The position numbers and the translations under genes are program-made. From positions 62,001 through 126,000 of the forward strand of contig NZ_JBBIAB010000004.1 of NCBI RefSeq assembly GCF_039634785.1: 64,000 bases of DNA, written 5' to 3'. The notes under the pieces were generated by a model. The model worked only from the letters and a program-made list of their open reading frames with translations, was not told where the DNA came from and did no database searches. This document shows positions 3,534 through 45,789 of this stretch, piece by piece (position 1 is the stretch's first letter; each line of letters opens with the position of its first letter). The DNA comes from Tistrella mobilis. GTDB taxonomy: Bacteria; Pseudomonadota; Alphaproteobacteria; Tistrellales; Tistrellaceae.

Positions 3534-4709
3534 ATGACCGACAAGGTCGATGCCAACTCCGTGGCGGCCGGGACCGCCGCCGCGGCCCGTGCCTTCACCC
3601 GCCGCGGCCTGCTCAAGGCCTCGGCTCTCGGCGGCGCCGCCCTCGCCCTCACGGGCCCGGCGATCCTGAACCCGGCCCGCGCGGCGGGTGGCGAGGTCCG
3701 GATCTTCGCCTGGGCCGGCTATGTCACCGACGAGATGCTGGACGCCTTCAAGTCGGCCACCGGCATCACCCCGGTGCGCACCGAATACGGCACCAATGAC
3801 GAGCTGCTGAACCAGCTCCGCGCCAGCCAGGGCGGCGGTTTCGACATCATCTGGCCGACCGTCGACCGCGTGCCCAACTATGTCGAGTTCGAGCTGGTGC
3901 AGCCGATCGACGAGGGCAAGGTCGCCTTCGACCGCCTGCTGCCCGCCACCATTTCGGGCTCGGCCGGCATGGGCGGCGTGATCGGCGGCAAGCGCTATAT
4001 CGTGCCGGTCGACTGGGGCACCGAGGCGCTGACCTTCCACAAGCAGCAGGCGCCGCTGGAATACGGCAAGGCCAGCTTCGGCGATCTGTGGAAGCCGGAC
4101 TTCGCCGGCAAGGTCACCGTCCGCGCCCATTCGGCCCTGGCCGGCCTGGGTCTCTGGCTCGAATCCGAAGGCAAGCTGCCCGCGCCCTATCGCGACAGCT
4201 TCAAGGACGAGGCCACGATGACGAAGAACTACGACGTCATCATCGCCGAGGCCATCAAGCACAAGAAGAATGTCGGCCAGTTCTGGAGCAACGAAAACGA
4301 GGCCCAGGGCGCCTTCCGCGCCAATGGCTGCGTGATCGGCCAGACCTGGGATTCGTCGTCGCTGGCCCTGTCCAAGGAAGGCCTGCCCTTCGGCTATGTG
4401 GCGCCCAAGGAAGGCGCGCTGGCCTGGATGGAAGGCGTGTGCCTCACCTCGAAGGCGCCGAACCTCGACAACGCCTATGCCTTCATCAATTGGCTGCTGA
4501 CCCCGGAAGCGGGCGCGATGCTGGCCAACCACATGGGCTACAACTCCACCGTCAAGGGCGCCGACGCGCTGCTGACGCCCGAGAACAAGGCCTTCTTCGC
4601 CGCCGCCTATCCGGGCGACGCGCTGGACAAGCTGTGGTGGTGGCCGGTGCAGGAAAGCTGGTTCGTCGCCAAGCGCAACGGCTATCAGGACCAGTTCCTG
4701 TCCGCCTGA
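3534..4709 (+). CDS. ABC transporter periplasmic binding protein, polyamine (PotD/PotF) type
   Basis: A 391-residue solute-binding protein of the spermidine/putrescine class. The N-terminus carries a Tat-type signal (TRRGLLKASALGG, residues about 20-32) with cleavage near NPARAA. The mature protein starts EVRIFAWAGYVTDEMLDAF, the usual PotD/PotF opening, and has the W-rich C-terminal half (KLWWWPVQESW). The start at 3534 follows a good GAGAGGAG ribosome site; an upstream in-frame GTG/ATG region lacks one. It is the first gene of a four-gene importer. The palindrome just after its stop may allow more of this protein than of the membrane parts. The true ligand may be a polyamine or another cationic compound. 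Confidence 0.9.
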   Translation: MTDKVDANSVAAGTAAAARAFTRRGLLKASALGGAALALTGPAILNPARAAGGEVRIFAWAGYVTDEMLDAFKSATGITPVRTEYGTNDELLNQLRASQGGGFDIIWPTVDRVPNYVEFELVQPIDEGKVAFDRLLPATISGSAGMGGVIGGKRYIVPVDWGTEALTFHKQQAPLEYGKASFGDLWKPDFAGKVTVRAHSALAGLGLWLESEGKLPAPYRDSFKDEATMTKNYDVIIAEAIKHKKNVGQFWSNENEAQGAFRANGCVIGQTWDSSSLALSKEGLPFGYVAPKEGALAWMEGVCLTSKAPNLDNAYAFINWLLTPEAGAMLANHMGYNSTVKGADALLTPENKAFFAAAYPGDALDKLWWWPVQESWFVAKRNGYQDQFLSA

Positions 4710-5888: not shown

Positions 5889-6765
5889 CATGATCCGCCG
5901 GCGCGGCCCGGCCCTCGCCTTCGCCATTCTGGGGATCAGCGCGGTCTGGGTGCTGATCCTGGTGGTGCTGCCGCAGCTCTGGATGCTGGACTATTCGCTG
6001 CGCCCCAACCTGCCGCCCTCGAAGGTCGGCGGGCCGGAGGACATCCGCAGCTTTGCCAACTATGCCGCGCTGTTCTCGAACCAGATCCATTTCGCCATCT
6101 TCATCAAGACGATCTGGGCGAGCGCGCTGGTCACCCTGCTGACCCTGGTCGCCTGCTACCCCATCGCCTATTACCTGGCCCAGGTCGCCACCCGCAGGCG
6201 GGCGGCGACCGTGATGCTGATCCTGATCATTCCGTTCTGGATCAACGAGGTGCTGCGTACTTTCGCCTGGTACATCATCCTGGCGCTGAACGGGCCGCTG
6301 AACGGCCTTCTGCTCGGCCTCGGCGTCATCGATCAGCCGGTGCGCTGGATCGACGGCAACGGCGCGGTGCTGGTCGGCATGGTCTATGCTTATGTGCTGT
6401 TCATGGTCTTCCCGATCTACAACGCGATCGAAAGCCTGGACCGGGCACAGATCGAAGCCGCCCGCGATCTGGGGGCCGGCTGGCCGCGCATCCACCGCCG
6501 GGTGGTGATCCCCCATGCCAAGCCGGGCATCGCCACCGGCTGCATCATGACCTTCATGCTCGCCGCCGGCTCCTATGCCGTGCCGGCCCTGCTCGGCTCG
6601 CCCGGCAGCCGCTGGTTCACCCAGATCATCTATGACTGGTTCTTCGAGGGTGGCAACTGGCATATGGGCGCTGCCTATGCCTTCGTGCTGCTGCTGATCT
6701 GCATGGGCTTCATCATGATCATGATGCGGGTGTTCAAGGTCGGCGTGGGAGACATCGCAAGATGA
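5881..6765 (+). CDS. ABC transporter permease, PotB type
   Basis: A 294-residue inner-membrane permease with six predicted helices. The EAA loop that docks on the ATPase is visible (EAARDLGAGWPRIHRRVVIP, about residues 198-217). The start ATG at 5881 lies within the end of the ATPase gene; an alternative ATG at 5890 would give nearly the same protein. The large periplasmic loop after helix 1, which contains DYSLRPN, is typical of PotB-like first permeases. The stop overlaps the next start by four bases (ATGA). Confidence 0.9.
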   Translation: MGDMIRRRGPALAFAILGISAVWVLILVVLPQLWMLDYSLRPNLPPSKVGGPEDIRSFANYAALFSNQIHFAIFIKTIWASALVTLLTLVACYPIAYYLAQVATRRRAATVMLILIIPFWINEVLRTFAWYIILALNGPLNGLLLGLGVIDQPVRWIDGNGAVLVGMVYAYVLFMVFPIYNAIESLDRAQIEAARDLGAGWPRIHRRVVIPHAKPGIATGCIMTFMLAAGSYAVPALLGSPGSRWFTQIIYDWFFEGGNWHMGAAYAFVLLLICMGFIMIMMRVFKVGVGDIAR

Positions 6766-7586
6766 GCACCGGAACCGCCACCGGCGAAGACCGTCTGGGC
6801 CGCATGATGATGCGGCTCTATCTGGGCCTGTTTCTGTTCTACCTCTTCCTGCCGCTGATCGTGATGGGGGCGGCCACCTTCAACGACAGCCGCCTGCCCA
6901 CCATCACCCCCTGGGCCGGCACCACGCTCAAATGGTTCGACGCCCTGTGGTCCGACAGGCAGATGTGGGAAGGGCTGACCACCAGCCTGCTGGCCGCGGC
7001 CGGCGTGGTCGCGGTCACGGTGCCGGTCGGCACCGCCGCAGCCCTGCTGCTCGACGGGCTGCGCGGGCGGGCGCGCAGCTTCGGCTTCGCGCTGATGGTC
7101 TCCCCCCTGCTGACGCCGGGCGTGATCATCGGCATCTCGACCCTGGTCTTCTGGCGTCAGGTCGAGGTCGGCGGCGGGCTGTTCCTGATCATCGTCGCCC
7201 AGTCCACCTATATCGCGGCCTATGTGATGCTGATGGTCCAGGCGCGGCTGCAGCGCTTCGACCGCGGGCTGGAGGAAGCCGCGCGCGATCTGGGGGCCAG
7301 CCCCTGGACCTCGTTCCGCCGCATCACCCTGCCCTTTCTGGCGCCGACCATGCTGGCCGCCGCCTTCATCGCCTTCCTGCAGAGCTTCGAGAACTACAAC
7401 ACCACCCTGTTCGTGCGCGGCTTCGATACGCCGCTCACCGTCTATATCGCCAGCAAGGTGCGCACCGGTGTCACCCCCGCGGTCAATGCGCTGGGGCTGA
7501 TCCTGATCGCGCTCACCATTCTGGGCGCGGTGATCTGGGAACTGAACCGCCGGCGGGCCGCGAAGCGCATCGCCCCCGCCGGCTGA
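6762..7586 (+). CDS. ABC transporter permease, PotC type
   Basis: A 274-residue second permease of the importer, with six predicted helices and an EAA loop (EEAARDLGASPWTSFRRI, about residue 170). The loop FNDSRLPTI after helix 1 matches PotC/YdcV-type permeases. It is coupled to the preceding permease by an ATGA overlap and ends the operon. It converges with the hydrolase gene 26 bases downstream, with no strong terminator between them. Confidence 0.9.
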   Translation: MSTGTATGEDRLGRMMMRLYLGLFLFYLFLPLIVMGAATFNDSRLPTITPWAGTTLKWFDALWSDRQMWEGLTTSLLAAAGVVAVTVPVGTAAALLLDGLRGRARSFGFALMVSPLLTPGVIIGISTLVFWRQVEVGGGLFLIIVAQSTYIAAYVMLMVQARLQRFDRGLEEAARDLGASPWTSFRRITLPFLAPTMLAAAFIAFLQSFENYNTTLFVRGFDTPLTVYIASKVRTGVTPAVNALGLILIALTILGAVIWELNRRRAAKRIAPAG

Positions 7587-12326: not shown

Positions 12327-15300
12327 TCAGCCGTGATCATGTCCGCCATGCTCGCGGGCCGCCTGGTTCTCGGCCTGGACGGTCGCCTTCACCTCGGTGC
12401 GCGGCACCCGGAACCACAGCGCATAGATGGCCGGCAGCGCCAGCAGGGTCAGCACGGTGGCACCCATCAGCCCGCCCATGATGGTCAGCGCCAGGGGCCC
12501 CCAGAACACGCTGTGCGACAACGGGATCATGCCCAGAATGGCGGCCAGCGCCGTCAGCACCACCGGCCGGGAGCGGCGCACCGTGGCATCGACGATCGCC
12601 TGGGCGCGGCTGTGTCCGGCGCGGACATCGGCCTCGATCTGGTCGATCAGGATCACCGTGTTGCGCATGATCATGCCGGCGAGCGCGATCAGCCCCAGCA
12701 GGGCGACGAAGCCGAAGGGCTGGTTGGTCGCCAGCAGCGCCCCCACCGCACCGATCAGCCCCAGCGGTGCGGTCAGGATCACCAGGATGAGCCGCGAGAA
12801 CGACTGCAGCTGAACCATCAGGATGGTGAGCATCACGATCAGCATCACCGGCATCACCGCCGCGATCGCCTTGTTGGCCTTGGCGCTCTCTTCGATCGAG
12901 CCACCGGTGTCGATCCGGTAGCCGGCCGGCAGCTCCGCCTTCAGCCCGGCCAGGGCCGGCAGCAGTTCATTGGTGACGTCGGGCGGCTGGACGCCATCGA
13001 TCACGTCGCCGCGCACCGTCAGCACGATCTCGCGGTTGCGGCGCCAGATGATCGGCTCTTCGAAGACATAGTCGATGCGCACCACCTGATCCAGCGGCAC
13101 CGGCACGCCGTCGCGGGTGGCGATCGTCAGCCCCGCCAGATGGTCCAGATCCAGCCGTTCCTCGGGCACCGCCCGGGCGACGACGTCGATCAGATCATTG
13201 CCCTCGCGATACTGGGTGATGGTGTAGCCGTCGAGCAGGGTGCGCAGCGATTCCGAAATGTCGGCCGGCGTCATGCCCAGCGCCCGGGCGCGATCCTGAT
13301 CCACCACCAGCCGCAGGCTTTTCTGCTGCTCGTTCCAGTTCAGATGCGGGTCGACGACCTTGTCATTCTGCAGCATCACATCGCGGACCCGATAGGCGAT
13401 CTCGCGCACCTTCAGCGGGTCGTCGCCCACCACCCGGAACTGGACCGGGAAACCCACCGGCGGGCCGAAGACGAAGCGGTCGACGCGGGCCCGCGCCTGG
13501 GTGACGGCGCCCTCTTCGATCGCCTTGTCGAGCCGCGCCTTCACCCGTTCCCGCGCCTCGGTGTCGCGGGTCAGGATCACGATCTGGGCGAAAGCGGTGT
13601 TGGGCAGCACCGGGTTCAGGCCCAGCCAGAAGCGCGGCGAGCCCTGGCCGACATAGGTGGTGTACGAGAGGATGTCCTCGTCGCCGACCAGCAGCCGTTC
13701 CGCCGTGCGCGCGGCGGCATCGGTCACCCCGATCGCCGTGCCCTCGGGCATGCGCAGTTCGAAGAACAGTTCCGGCCGGGTCGATGTCGGGAAGAACTGC
13801 TGCTGCACCATGCCGGTGCCGACGATCGAGGCCGCGAACATGCCGACCGTCAGCAGGATGACGATGATCCGGTGACCGACGCACCAGCCGATCATCCGGC
13901 GCAGAATGCGATAGATCCGGGTGTCGTAAACCGCATCCGGGTCGTGATGGGCACCCTTCTTCTTCGAGAAATCGGGCAAGAGCTTGTAGCCCAGATAGGG
14001 CGTGAAGATCACCGCCACGAACCAGGACGCGATCAGCGCAATGCCCACCACCCAGAAGATCGCGCCGGCATATTCGCCCGAGCTGGATTTGGCGAAACCG
14101 ACCGGCAGAAAGCCCGCGGCGGTGACCAGCGTGCCGGTCAGCATCGGGAAGGCGGTGGAGGTCCAGGCGAAGGTGGCGGCGCGCGCCCGGCTCCAGCCCT
14201 GTTCCATCTTCACCACCATCATCTCGATGGCGATGATCGCATCATCGACCAGCAGGCCGAGCGCGATGATCAGCGCCCCCAGAGAGATGCGGTGCAGGTC
14301 CATGTCAATCGCGAACATCACCAGGAAGACGATCGCGAGCACCAGCGGCACCGAGAAAGCGACGACGATGCCTGTGCGCAGGCCCAGCGACAGGAAGCTC
14401 ACCGCCAGCACGATCACCAGCGCCTCGATGAACACCTTCACGAATTCGGCGACCGATTCATCCACCACATGCGGCTGATCGGCGATCTGGACCACATCGA
14501 TGCCGACCGGCAGTTCGGCGCGGATGTCGGCCATGGCGCCGGCCAGATTTTCCCCCAGCGTCAGGATGTTGGCGCCGTCTTCCATGGCGACGCCCACACC
14601 CACCGCGGTCTTGCCGCCCTGGCGGACCAGAAAATCGGCCGGGTCTTCATAGCCGCGGCGGACATCGGCGACGTCGCCCAGCCGGAACACCCGGCCACCG
14701 GCCTGGATGGGCGTGGCGGCGATCCGCTCCACCGCATCGAAAGCCCCGGTGACGCGCAGATAGATCCGGTCGGCGGTGGTATCGACCGAGCCCGCCGGCG
14801 CCACGGCATTCTGCCGGGCGACGCTTTCGAAGATCGCCTGGGGGGTGATGCCCAGCGTCGCGATCCGGGTGTGGCTGAATTCCACCCAGACCCGCTGATC
14901 CTGGTTGCCGATCACATCGACCTTGGTGACGTCGGGCACCTTCAGCAGCCGGCTGCGCATGCCCTCGGCCACCTTTTCCAGGGCGGCCGGGTCCAGCCCG
15001 TCGGCGGTGATCATGTAGAGCGCCGAATAGACGTCGCCATATTCGTCGTTGAAGAACGGCCCCAGCACGCCCGACGGCAGGCGGTTGCGGATATCGCCCA
15101 CCTTCTTGCGCACCTGATACCACAGCCCCGCCACGTCGCGCGGCGGGGTCGCATCCGAGAGCGTCACCTGCACGAAGGTGGCGCCGGGCTGGGAATAGGT
15201 GTCCAGCCGTTCGAGATGGGGCAGTTCCTGGAGCTTCTTCTCGATCTCGTCGGCGACCTGGGACTGCATCTCCAGCGTGGTCGCCCCCGGCCAGCGGGCC

Positions 15301-22790: not shown

Positions 22791-24818
22791 TCAGGCCGCC
22801 GCCGCCTCGGTCCAGGCCATGCAATGGCCCAGGAAATCGTCATAGCCCTCGAATTTTTTCGGCAGTTTCAGGCCGCTCTCGGCATAGACCCGGCCGATGC
22901 CGTCGATCATCTCGGCCTCGCGGGCAAGTGCGCCGCGGACCTTGATCAGCGCCTGATCGATTGCCGACGCATCGACCGTCGACAGCCTGGGCAGCCGGGC
23001 GGCGAAGTCGGTCATCTGGGCCTCCGACAGGAACAGCCGCGCCACATACGGGAACAGGCTGGTGGCGGGATGCGACCAGTGCCGCTCGCACAGCACTTCC
23101 GACAGGGTATAGATCCCGTCGACCGCCTTGCGGCTGAGCGGCGCCCAGCGTTCGGCCCAGCTGTTGCAGGCGGCGCATTTCGGCCGGCCCTGCTTCATGA
23201 CCATGGCATCCTCGGCAAGTTCGGTGCGGCAGCGCTTGCACCACCAGCTCTGGGTGTACTGGAACGGGATGTTGATGAAAAAGTCCCACGCCTCTTCCGG
23301 CACCACCTCGATACCCTCGGGCGGGGTGTGGATCAGCGGTGCGCGTCGGGCCAGCTGAAAGCGGGTCGGCTTCACGGTCAGCACGTCCCGCCCCTTCTCG
23401 GTCAGGAAGCGGAACAGCGGCAGGACATGATGGATGGGCTCACCCGGATAGCCCACGATGAAGAAGACATGGTTCCAGATGCCCGCCGCGGTGGTGTTGG
23501 CCAGGCTGCGGGCATATTCGTCGGGCGTGTTGCCCTTCTTCATCGCCTTCAATGTGGCGGGCGCGATGCTCTCCAGCCCGAATTGCAGGAAACGCCCGCC
23601 GGCCTCGCGGATCTGCACGCAGGTATCGGGCTCCAGATAGGCCCGCTCGAACCGCGCATAGGCTTCCCAGTGGATGTCCGAGAGTCCGCGCCGGGCCAGA
23701 TGCTCCCCCAGTTCCAGCATTTCCGAGACCCGGAACCATTCATCGGTGAAGCTGAACCGGGTGCGGCCGGTCTCGCCATGCCAGACCGCCAGATCCTCGG
23801 CCACCATCTCGATCGGCCGGAGGCGCTTGCGGAACTTCACCTTCACCGCCCCGTCGGGCTGGGTCTCGTGGGTGACGCTGTCATAGCCCTCGTTAATGTC
23901 GCAGAAGCTGCAGATCCCCGAGTAATAGCAGCCGCGATAGATGTTCAGCGCCGTCACCGGCTCGGGCGTCCAGGGCGCATAGGCCTCGGGGTCGGGCCGC
24001 GGCAGGCGGTCGAGCGCGATCGGCATGGAAGGCGGGCCGGAAACCGGCCGGGCGCCGTCGAAGCGGATCACCTGCGGCACCGGCCGGTTGGCGACCCGGC
24101 CATGGACCAGTTCCTGAAGCAGCTGGTCCAGCGGCTGTTCACCCTCGTGATGGATGAAGCTGTCGACCACGGAATAGAGCGCCGCGGTCTCGGGCTCGTC
24201 GGCTTCCAGCGAAGTCTTCAGTCGCGCGATCAGATTGCCGCCGATGGTGATATGGGTGTCGGGCAGCGCCTCGCGCAGCATCGAGGCCAGCACCATCGAC
24301 GGGATCAGCTGGTGATGGTCGTTCACCGACAGCCCGACAAGCCGCGGCTGCAGCGCCCGGATCGCCGGCACCTCGACATCGCGGTAATAGTCGTGGAAGA
24401 GATGGGTTTCGCGGTCGCGCACCGCCGCCATCACCCCCGCCCGCCGGCGGGCATCATGGGCCGAGATGTATTGCAGCGTGTTGCGGAAGATGCGGAAGGT
24501 GTCGGGCACCGCCGCATCGATCACCAGCGAGGCCTGTTCGATCACCTGCTTGGCGGCGAGATAGGGTTCAAGCGCGTGATGCGCCTGCCAGTCGCGCATG
24601 GTGGCGAGCGCCGGGCCGATCCCCGACACCAGTTCGGCCGGTGCGCCGGCACGGGCCAGCGCTTCGGGGCGCAGCACATGTTCGATCGCGGGGATGTTGG
24701 CGTCGCGCTGCACCACCTGCCAACCGCGCGACCGCAACCAGGCGGTGAGGTGCGACAGGCCGGGCGCCACGAACCATGGGTAATAGGAGGGCGGGAAGAC
24801 CAGCACGGCATCGGTCAT
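22791..24818 (-). CDS. Radical SAM protein with N-terminal B12-binding-like region and C-terminal Cys4 site
   Basis: A 675-residue protein. Residues 1 to about 210 resemble the B12-binding-type Rossmann region found in many radical SAM enzymes (VGLSVNDHHQLIP and THITIGGNL). The radical SAM centre is at C297, C303 and C306 in GCYYSGICSFCDI, i.e. C-x5-C-x2-C rather than the common C-x3-C-x2-C. GLESIAP, FFIVGYPGE and nearby segments follow the core strands. A C-terminal pair of CxxC motifs (C527/C530 and C548/C551) looks like a zinc ribbon or an extra cluster. The reaction and substrate are unknown. It lies downstream of the tRNA-like gene on the same strand. The open frame runs on through the tRNA, but the start at 24818 is the first plausible one after it. 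Confidence 0.82.
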   Translation of the reverse strand: MTDAVLVFPPSYYPWFVAPGLSHLTAWLRSRGWQVVQRDANIPAIEHVLRPEALARAGAPAELVSGIGPALATMRDWQAHHALEPYLAAKQVIEQASLVIDAAVPDTFRIFRNTLQYISAHDARRRAGVMAAVRDRETHLFHDYYRDVEVPAIRALQPRLVGLSVNDHHQLIPSMVLASMLREALPDTHITIGGNLIARLKTSLEADEPETAALYSVVDSFIHHEGEQPLDQLLQELVHGRVANRPVPQVIRFDGARPVSGPPSMPIALDRLPRPDPEAYAPWTPEPVTALNIYRGCYYSGICSFCDINEGYDSVTHETQPDGAVKVKFRKRLRPIEMVAEDLAVWHGETGRTRFSFTDEWFRVSEMLELGEHLARRGLSDIHWEAYARFERAYLEPDTCVQIREAGGRFLQFGLESIAPATLKAMKKGNTPDEYARSLANTTAAGIWNHVFFIVGYPGEPIHHVLPLFRFLTEKGRDVLTVKPTRFQLARRAPLIHTPPEGIEVVPEEAWDFFINIPFQYTQSWWCKRCRTELAEDAMVMKQGRPKCAACNSWAERWAPLSRKAVDGIYTLSEVLCERHWSHPATSLFPYVARLFLSEAQMTDFAARLPRLSTVDASAIDQALIKVRGALAREAEMIDGIGRVYAESGLKLPKKFEGYDDFLGHCMAWTEAAAA

Positions 24819-24912: not shown

Positions 24913-25013
24913 TGGTGCCGGAGGCAGGACTTGAACCTGCAAGGACACGGAGGCCCCGACGGAAGAACGACCAGGGCCGCACTTCCGGTGTCTGCCAGTT
25001 TCACCACTCCGGC
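24913..25013 (-). tRNA. tRNA-Leu-like gene with abnormal anticodon arm
   Basis: Read on the minus strand from 25013, the sequence has a 7-bp acceptor stem (GCCGGAG with CTCCGGC), a class II D-arm (GTG, AAACTGGCAGA, CAC), a long variable region, a perfect T-arm (GCAGG-TTCAAGT-CCTGC) and an encoded CCA. These features match tRNA-Leu. The anticodon arm does not: the only 5-bp stem (GGAAG with CTTCC) encloses 16 bases instead of 7, with no Leu anticodon in register and no clear U33. Total length is 101 bases with CCA, longer than a normal tRNA-Leu. It may be a pseudo-tRNA or a specialised tRNA-like RNA. Confidence 0.6.
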
Positions 25014-25161
25014 ATCAGGTCCGATGGCGCATGATGGTCAGCGGTTGACCGTTGTCGTCTTTGGCGCGACAGGCCATCGTCTTGGGATGATGATATTTTG
25101 AATCACCAATCACCATCAACCAAAAATTGCAGAATCTTTGCAGACATATCGCAGTTCAAGA

Positions 25162-26442
25162 TCACCAGACCACCAGCCCCACCACCGCGCCGGTCATGCA
25201 GGTCGCGATCGTGCCCGACACCAGCGACAGCGGCGCCAGCCGGACGATGTCGGTGCGGCGTTCGGGCACCATGGCCACCATGCCGCCGATCATGATGCCC
25301 AGGCTGCCGATATTGGCGAAGCTGCCCAGGGCATAGGTCAGGATCAACCGGGCCCGCGGGCTGAAGGCCGAGGGGTCGGCGGTGAACTGCAGATAGGCGA
25401 CCAGCTCGTTGATCACGACCTTGGTGCCGAGCAGCGGGCCCGCCGCCAGGGCTTCGGGCCAGCTCATCCCCATCGCCCAGGCGACCGGCGCCATAATCCA
25501 GCCCAGCATCCGTTCCAGCGTCAGCGGCGCGCCCCAGACGTCACCGGCAAGGCCCAGGATCATGTTGGCGAGGGCGGCGAGCGCGATGCCGGCGATCAGC
25601 ATCGCCACCACGCTGATCAGCAGGTTGACGCCGTTGATCACCCCCATGACCGCCGCTTCCAGGCTGGTCGCGGCATCCGATGGCGGGGCGGTCGCATCAT
25701 CGTCCACAGCCCGGGCGCCGGCCACCGGCGGCATCATGACCATCGCCACCACCAGCGCCGCCGGCGCCGAAATCAGCGATGCCGTCAGCAACTGGCCGAT
25801 CGGGTCTTCGACCGTGCCGGTCAGGAAGGCGGCATAAAGCACCATCATATTGCCGGCCAGCGTGGCAAGGCCCGCCGTCATCACCATGAACAGCTCGGGG
25901 TTCGACAGCCGGGCCAGATAGGGCCGCACGAACAGCGGCGCCTCCACCATGCCCACGAAGACATTGGCCGCGGTCGACACCCCGACCGCACCGCCGATGC
26001 CCATGGTCCGGCGCAGCAGCCTGGAGAAGGCGCGCACGAAGAACGGGATCACACCCCAGTGATAGAGCAGCCCGGCAATGGCGCCCACCACCAGGATCAG
26101 CGGCAGGCCCTGAAAGGCGAGCACGAAGGAATTGGCCGGATTGGTCGCCTCGAACGGGGCCGCACCGCCGCCCAGATAGCCGAAGACCACCGAGGTGCCG
26201 GCTTTGGTGGCGGCGACCAGGGCCGAAACCGCCTGATTGATCCAGACGAACACCGCCTGCACCGGGGGCAGTTTCAGCAGGATCAGCGCGATCACCACCT
26301 GGATCACAATGCCGATGCCCACCGCCCGCCAGGGCACCCCCTTCGGCGCCCGGCCGATCATCCAGGCCAGCGCCACCAGCGCCAGCACCCCGAACGCGCT
26401 CTGCGCAACGCCGCCGAACGACGCTCCGGTCACTCCGTCCAT
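25162..26442 (-). CDS. Concentrative nucleoside transporter, NupC/CNT family
   Basis: A 426-residue inner-membrane symporter that imports nucleosides with H+ or Na+. About ten membrane segments are seen, with family blocks such as GVSTAANVFVGMVEAPLFVRPYL (about residues 165-187, where the family's E-A-P motif lies), LTASLISAPAALV and TKVVINELVAYLQF. The start ATG at 26442 is used because the predicted N-terminus then begins just ahead of helix 1; the open frame continues upstream without a ribosome site. It is followed, across a gap, by the abnormal tRNA on the same strand. Confidence 0.9.
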   Translation of the reverse strand: MDGVTGASFGGVAQSAFGVLALVALAWMIGRAPKGVPWRAVGIGIVIQVVIALILLKLPPVQAVFVWINQAVSALVAATKAGTSVVFGYLGGGAAPFEATNPANSFVLAFQGLPLILVVGAIAGLLYHWGVIPFFVRAFSRLLRRTMGIGGAVGVSTAANVFVGMVEAPLFVRPYLARLSNPELFMVMTAGLATLAGNMMVLYAAFLTGTVEDPIGQLLTASLISAPAALVVAMVMMPPVAGARAVDDDATAPPSDAATSLEAAVMGVINGVNLLISVVAMLIAGIALAALANMILGLAGDVWGAPLTLERMLGWIMAPVAWAMGMSWPEALAAGPLLGTKVVINELVAYLQFTADPSAFSPRARLILTYALGSFANIGSLGIMIGGMVAMVPERRTDIVRLAPLSLVSGTIATCMTGAVVGLVVW

Positions 26443-26576
26443 ATGCCCCTGCCCCCACTGCCGTCGTGTCTTGTGCCAGCTCTGCGCCCGGCCCCCAACC
26501 GAAACGCGAGACACCCCGTCATGGAGCCGACTCTAGGCGCAAACCGGCCCGGCGGTCCACAACCGTGCGGGGCCGG

Positions 26577-45434: not shown

Positions 45435-45474
45435 GTGCCGCTTGCCCCGGGGCATCCCGGTCTTTATGGTGCGG

Positions 45475-45673
45475 GGCGACGGTTCCGTGCCGCCTTTCCC
45501 CGGAAAGGCGGCCGGCGAAGAGGGAACGCGGTGCGGCGCCAGGGCGCCCAGGCCGCGGCTGTACCCGCAACTGTAGGCGGTGAGCCCACCCCCATGACAG
45601 CCACTGGCGGTAACAGGCCGGGAAGGCCGGGGGTCCGGGCCTGGACCCGCGAGCCAGGAGACCTGCCGTCGCC
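45475..45673 (+). ncRNA. Cobalamin (AdoCbl) riboswitch
   Basis: A 199-base leader element with the classic cobalamin-aptamer landmarks. P1 closes with GGCGACGG (45475-45482) and CCGTCGCC (45666-45673). Inside are the conserved segments CCCGCAACTGT, GCCACTGG and GGGAAGGC, and the B12 box AGCCAGGAGACCTGCCG (45652-45668). It lies just upstream of a TonB receptor gene and cobQ-cobC, so cobalamin probably represses uptake and late synthesis. Confidence 0.95.
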
Positions 45674-45789
45674 ACCCCGCGTATCGCGCGGTCGTCGGGC
45701 GGGCATGACCGGCGGCAGGGAGATCCGGACAGGTGCCGGCCATCCCGTTCGCGTCGGTGCGCCAGCCATCGCGGGACCACGCCAGACCC

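Follow-up and report, generated by a model that had tools for sequence, protein, structure and literature searches.

The locus raises a simple question: why would a bacterium keep a gene with the body of a leucine tRNA but no anticodon for leucine? The gene lies in a 64,000-nucleotide stretch of Tistrella mobilis DNA (contig NZ_JBBIAB010000004.1, positions 62,001–126,000), referred to here as the window. On the minus strand, positions 25013–24913 hold a 101-nt tRNA-Leu-shaped gene with an encoded CCA, in the order GCCGGAG-TG-GTG-AAACTGGCAGA-CAC-[CGGAAG TGCGGCCCTGGTCGTT CTTCCG]-TCGGGGCCTCCGTGTCCTT-GCAGG-TTCAAGT-CCTGC-CTCCGGC-A-CCA. The 5' strand of the acceptor stem (GCCGGAG, 25007–25013) forms seven perfect pairs with 24917–24923, and the 3' strand continues into the discriminator A73 (24916) and the CCA (24913–24915), so that this end spans 24913–24923. 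The D arm (24988–25004) consists of a perfect 3-bp GUG/CAC stem and an 11-nt Leu-type loop containing A14, A15, G18 and G19. The T arm, GCAGG-UUCAAGU-CCUGC (24924–24940), has a perfect 5-bp stem and is found both by the RF00005 match and by constrained folding.

Searched alone, the stretch matches RF00005 with 32.1 bits (cut-off 29), the centre of the gene being an unaligned insert. A whole-genome search with the same model also recovers the gene above the cut-off, again with its central part unaligned, while the gene is absent from the listing of an Rfam scan of the entire window at the gathering threshold. The copy in a second Tistrella genome, G001, reaches 33.3 bits. Other class II tRNAs in the same genome as the gene, including the Leu set, score ~50–63 bits. 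The reading made from the sequence alone had described acceptor, D and T arms and an encoded CCA typical of a good tRNA-Leu, and the search with the tRNA model that it called for bears this out. ARAGORN gives no call with default settings. When introns are allowed, it reports the same gene ends, with 11 nt assigned to an 'intron' and an Arg anticodon that has no meaning here. No other Rfam family was matched to the gene.

The central arm departs from a normal tRNA. Directly after the D arm, a 6-bp stem, CGGAAG/CUUCCG (24960–24987), encloses 16 bases (UGCGGCCCUGGUCGUU, 24966–24981) in place of the 7-nt loop on a 5-bp stem that characterizes RF00005 members. The sequence-only reading took these bases for a 16-base anticodon loop; they are indeed enclosed by the only anticodon stem, but they are predicted to pair with each other (CGGC-CCUG-GUCG), forming an inner stem with a CCUG tetraloop (24967–24980). 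This stem has 5 bp in the window copy, where a basal G.U pair is added, and 4 bp in G001, where the G.U is lost. For the 28-nt arm the predicted folding energy is −14.7 kcal/mol, with a z score of ~−3.9, and only 4 of 1000 dinucleotide shuffles are equally stable. Because the 16 enclosed bases pair among themselves and the fold is unusually stable relative to shuffled sequences, the anticodon arm in the modelled structure is an extended hairpin and not an open or floppy loop.

The hairpin offers no leucine anticodon. Every Leu anticodon (NAA or NAG) has an A at position 35, and the 16 bases lack A in each of the three Tistrella genomes. A Leu-decoding tRNA can therefore not arise by any excision within the loop, and none of the folds examined contains a 7-base loop with a Leu anticodon. 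The earlier statement that no Leu anticodon stands in register thus holds, and the normal 7-base loop that would have spoken against it did not appear. A mini-intron in the loop, removed by splicing to give a decoding tRNA-Leu, would explain the 11-nt 'intron' of ARAGORN and has a parallel in the short loop insertions of some viral tRNA-Leu(UAA)-like genes. We reject it as next to negligible: the lack of A means that excision cannot leave a cognate 7-nt Leu loop, and the anticodon that ARAGORN assigns to this Leu body changes between genomes (gcg or tcg).

When the whole RNA is folded, the constrained cloverleaf has energies of −42.5, −42.2 and −40.2 kcal/mol in the three genomes, compared to minima of −46.7, −46.5 and −46.5 kcal/mol. 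The resulting gap of 4–6 kcal/mol compares with 0–5 kcal/mol for the normal Leu tRNAs of this genome. For two rival centres, built on GACAC/GUGUC or on GGCCCUGG/YCGGGGCC, the predicted stability slightly exceeds that of the cloverleaf. Under the cloverleaf constraint, the class II variable arm takes the canonical form GGGGC-CUCCGU-GUCCU (24942–24957), followed by U48, with a single C to T substitution among the genomes in its loop. The cloverleaf is preferred over both rival centres since the D-loop and T-loop residues are invariant. It is improbable that the gene encodes a structured small RNA of tRNA descent that no longer mimics a tRNA and consists of the acceptor stem and a long central hairpin. 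Unconstrained folding is indeed dominated by the acceptor stem and central helices, with low pair probabilities for the T and D arms; however, misfolding in silico is also seen in normal tRNAs, with gaps up to 4.8 kcal/mol, and outside a tRNA fold no clear role is apparent for the unchanged T-loop, D-loop and CCA residues.

The three available Tistrella genomes (the window genome, G162 and G001) share the gene and its position, each with the abnormal anticodon arm. Coding identity among these genomes is 92–97%. As a yardstick for the neutral rate we used the upstream NupC-type nucleoside transporter gene (25162–26514, minus strand; Pfam), whose fourfold-site divergence is 0.19 from G001 and 0.084 from G162; the radical SAM gene on the other side gives 0.216 and 0.097. 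Between the window and G001, the gene body carries 4 changes in 101 positions where ~19 would be expected at 0.19 (P ~9e-6), and the outer-arm and stem positions carry none in 72 (P ~3e-7); these P values treat sites as independent, come from three genomes only and, for the 72-position set, from positions chosen after the changes were seen. Two of the four substitutions are at the base of the inner hairpin, one is at position 45 and one in the variable loop. All fall outside the cloverleaf stems, except for the one lost G.U pair. The comparison covers three genomes of one genus, with a neutral divergence of at most ~20%.

This pattern bears on the possibility that an insertion into the anticodon arm inactivated a tRNA-Leu gene, which now decays slowly, the likeness of the three copies reflecting recent common descent. 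The gene is redundant beside the normal Leu set, no close copy is found elsewhere and the Tistrella genomes are close to one another, all of which would suit a decaying gene. Neither the neutral substitution rate nor the broken stems of a pseudogene are seen, however: the changes are too few for neutrality, and a promoter-like block upstream is invariant although the adjoining spacer has diverged by 26%. As judged from these alignments, random decay is unlikely, because neither the outer arms and stems (0/72) nor the upstream block (0/52) have changed against a neutral divergence of ~19%. The earlier view of a gene that is retained rather than lost is therefore supported by its relatives, in which the locus and its unusual loop were the proposed point of comparison.

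The invariant upstream block (25088–25139, minus strand) contains a promoter-like site found by promoter scan, TTGATG-18-TATCAT (25119–25090). None of its 52 positions differs from G001 (P ~2e-5 at the neutral rate), while the spacer immediately above it has diverged by 26%, in keeping with the neutral rate. The block is unique in the genome, allowing up to three mismatches, and a promoter element common to other genes was discarded on the basis of this single occurrence. Between the block and the gene lies a putative 5' leader (25014–25087, minus strand) with an inverted repeat, GGTCA-ACCGC-TGACC. The leader has 9 changes in 74 positions compared to G001, which is not significantly below neutral. 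We set aside a structured leader RNA on this near-neutral divergence and a fold z score of only −1.8. A coding leader was also rejected, since a stop codon in the aligned G001 sequence interrupts the 20-codon open reading frame whose end lies directly ahead of the gene.

Downstream, a gene for a B12-binding-type radical SAM protein (22791–24818, minus strand; Pfam PF04055, with PF02310 below its cut-off and NCBIfam matches only below cut-offs) starts ~95 nt past the CCA. This proximity suggests a possible cis-regulatory reading. The tRNA-shaped element could sit in the radical SAM leader, where RNase P and 3' processing, or a switch between folds, would set the 5' end or expression of the mRNA. 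The two genes share a strand, no terminator-like site was found between them on that strand, the ~31 nt following the CCA are well conserved (1/31 changes) and three folds compete. On the other hand, the remaining spacer up to the radical SAM ATG is not significantly conserved (8/60 changes), and a simple cleavage signal would not need the leucylation elements, all of which are retained. We consider this role quite unlikely. Next to the tRNA-Leu-like gene no dedicated partner gene came to light, and its present neighbours, the transporter and the radical SAM gene, give no pointer to leucine transfer. Further along the window, the plus strand carries a cobalamin riboswitch at 45463–45684 with a strong match to RF00174 (99.1 bits).

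Outside the genus, only rare analogues of the gene were found. A scan of the genome collection gave a sole match, in NC_017956.1 of Tistrella mobilis KA081020-065, and no copy was found in phages or plasmids. A pattern of Leu-type D and T arms around a long centre was matched in only Tistrella, G054 and G169 among 385 alphaproteobacteria, and once, by the window itself, among 398 sampled Pseudomonadota; as the pattern fixes the sequences of the D and T arms, both surveys under-count. The G054 matches have normal 7-nt loops and long variable arms. The alphaproteobacterium G169 (L067, from C23:102178 on) and a prophage contig (L075, IMGVR_UViG_2600255076_000002, 4432–4545) each contain a tRNA-Leu-like gene in which a closed hairpin of 42–44 nt, with a common TTGCCTAA...TTTAGGAA core, replaces the anticodon arm. 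The G169 gene adjoins a gene for a DUF3800-like protein; the prophage gene is located between structural genes. Like the Tistrella gene, both keep their Leu-type outer arms and CCA intact around a long closed hairpin, but the Tistrella hairpin is shorter (28 nt) and unrelated in sequence, so that only the architecture is alike. Their settings would suit a decoy of mobile-element origin, directed against tRNA-cleaving toxins or phage defence, which it would bind or resist. For the Tistrella gene we regard such an origin as very improbable, as no mobile genes are seen beside its locus, flanked by the transporter and radical SAM genes, and phages and plasmids have no match.

Several other tRNA genes of unusual form were observed. 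In G054 (L189, G054:C1:1514000-1524000), near-identical tRNA-Leu-bodied genes, ~206 bp apart, form two groups at 1298–1605 and 6308–7028. Their anticodon loops read CUCGCAA, UUGCCAU, CUCGCAC and UUCGCAC, with apparent CGC or GCC anticodons unsuited to a Leu body, and their long variable arms differ. In two viral contigs, L081 (~6617–6740) and L152 (~12710–12840, minus strand), tRNA-Leu(UAA)-like genes are interrupted in the anticodon loop, after U34, by a conserved insertion slightly longer than 30 nt that forms a GAACATCTGC...GCGGGTGTTC hairpin; their anticodon stems show compensatory changes, and the insertion may be a short intron of a bacterial or phage tRNA. In the tRNA-Leu-like genes of viral contigs L141 and L153, a common sequence, CACATGGCTTGGT...GAGCCTGT(TA)AATTAAGAT, stands in place of the anticodon and variable arms, and the two copies differ by changes that seem to be paired. 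On a 7.3-kb contig, nine closely packed tRNA genes (L049, G000:C48:6192-7134) look like a mobile tRNA array; a cluster of this type is absent from the match list of G001, which has 50 tRNA matches against 58. Finally, a low tRNA match of 30.3 bits (L053, G000:C14:1835-1908), not accepted by ARAGORN, has a counterpart of equal score at C4:848505-848578 of G001.

What, then, could maintain the Tistrella gene? In both species examined, the Leu anticodons UAA, CAA, CAG, GAG and UAG are all carried by normal isoacceptor genes elsewhere. As these five are encoded as normal genes, decoding does not need the additional one, and a stand-in for a missing isoacceptor was rejected on the same ground. The gene shares U8, A14, A15, G18, G19, U48, U54, U55, C56, A58, A73 and the CCA with the five genomic Leu tRNAs. 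In E. coli, leucine identity is set by A73 and the tertiary core and not by the anticodon, and the anticodon arm of tRNA-Leu is dispensable for aminoacylation but needed for editing (PMC9976931). The elements of a LeuRS substrate listed in that work (A73, U8, A14, A15-U48, G18/G19 and the T-loop residues) are all present in the Tistrella gene.

With the Leu set supplied elsewhere, the core leucylation elements kept and the anticodon arm dispensable for charging in E. coli, a non-decoding leucyl acceptor is the simplest reading. On this comparative evidence, the gene probably produces a working RNA with a task outside decoding. More specifically, we estimate a probability of about one half that selection maintains it in the genus Tistrella as a non-decoding derivative of tRNA-Leu, which acts as a leucyl-acceptor RNA off the ribosome. 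Use outside decoding had already been suggested by the sequence-only reading; given five isoacceptors elsewhere and no possible Leu anticodon, this is a reasonable proposal, plausible rather than proven. The RNA would probably be transcribed from its own promoter, probably be trimmed like a tRNA and fold into a leucine-type body with a closed extended hairpin for an anticodon arm. Charging by LeuRS, an enzyme that ignores the anticodon, is the most likely mechanism, and the product would not pair with codons in the ribosome. It may instead donate leucine to a transferase away from the ribosome, or compete for LeuRS or a different tRNA-binding protein, or act as a sensor for one of these.

The Leu/Phe-tRNA-protein transferase family is present in all three Tistrella genomes and is one possible user of the leucyl-RNA; the user might also be some other partner. 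As to a cyclodipeptide synthase that uses leucine, the three Tistrella genomes gave no match, and the positive control was likewise empty. A bolder version of the leucyl-acceptor reading is doubtful, and we offer it tentatively: a leucyl carrier tRNA that is dedicated to this task and devoid of an anticodon, that ordinary LeuRS would charge and the closed hairpin would keep off the ribosome, and that selection would preserve for leucine delivery or sensing outside translation. Its analogues in other alphaproteobacteria and in prophages would be independent.

A conserved non-decoding leucine-acceptor tRNA of this form is not described in the literature searched. Transfer RNAs that act outside decoding normally keep their anticodon. 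If the leucyl-acceptor reading is true, a conserved bacterial tRNA with a closed decoding end would provide a clean genetic split of charging and decoding, and would allow LeuRS-based sensing, or the use of leucyl-tRNA away from the ribosome, to be tested directly. Counts of such RNAs may be too low, since default ARAGORN misses the Tistrella gene.

Gene finders would flag the gene as non-canonical, as they do tRNA gene fragments and pseudogenes (PMC9897764); in contrast to these, it is untruncated, has intact outer arms and changes more slowly than neutral sites. With bacterial class II tRNA-Leu it shares the layout of acceptor, D, variable and T arms, A73, the CCA and the tertiary core residues, but it has a 28-nt closed hairpin where the 7-nt loop and any possible Leu anticodon would be. 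It resembles tmRNA in its tRNA-like end with CCA and, in one alternative fold (B), in a long helix that replaces the D and anticodon arms. The acceptor of tmRNA is Ala-type, whereas that of the 101-nt Tistrella gene is Leu-type, and an identity as tmRNA was rejected because neither Rfam nor ARAGORN gives a tmRNA match. Comparable in function may be peptide aminoacyl-tRNA ligase and cyclodipeptide synthase pathways, which are not known to use any but ordinary tRNAs. Both have been reported from T. mobilis and share with the proposed role the use of charged tRNA outside translation: the ligase of the tmo cluster uses charged tRNA away from the ribosome (PMC9303977), and a bicyclomycin-type cluster is of the kind in which cyclodipeptide synthases use charged tRNA (PMC5930311). 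The characterised tmo enzyme adds Cys, while the Tistrella gene is of the Leu type.
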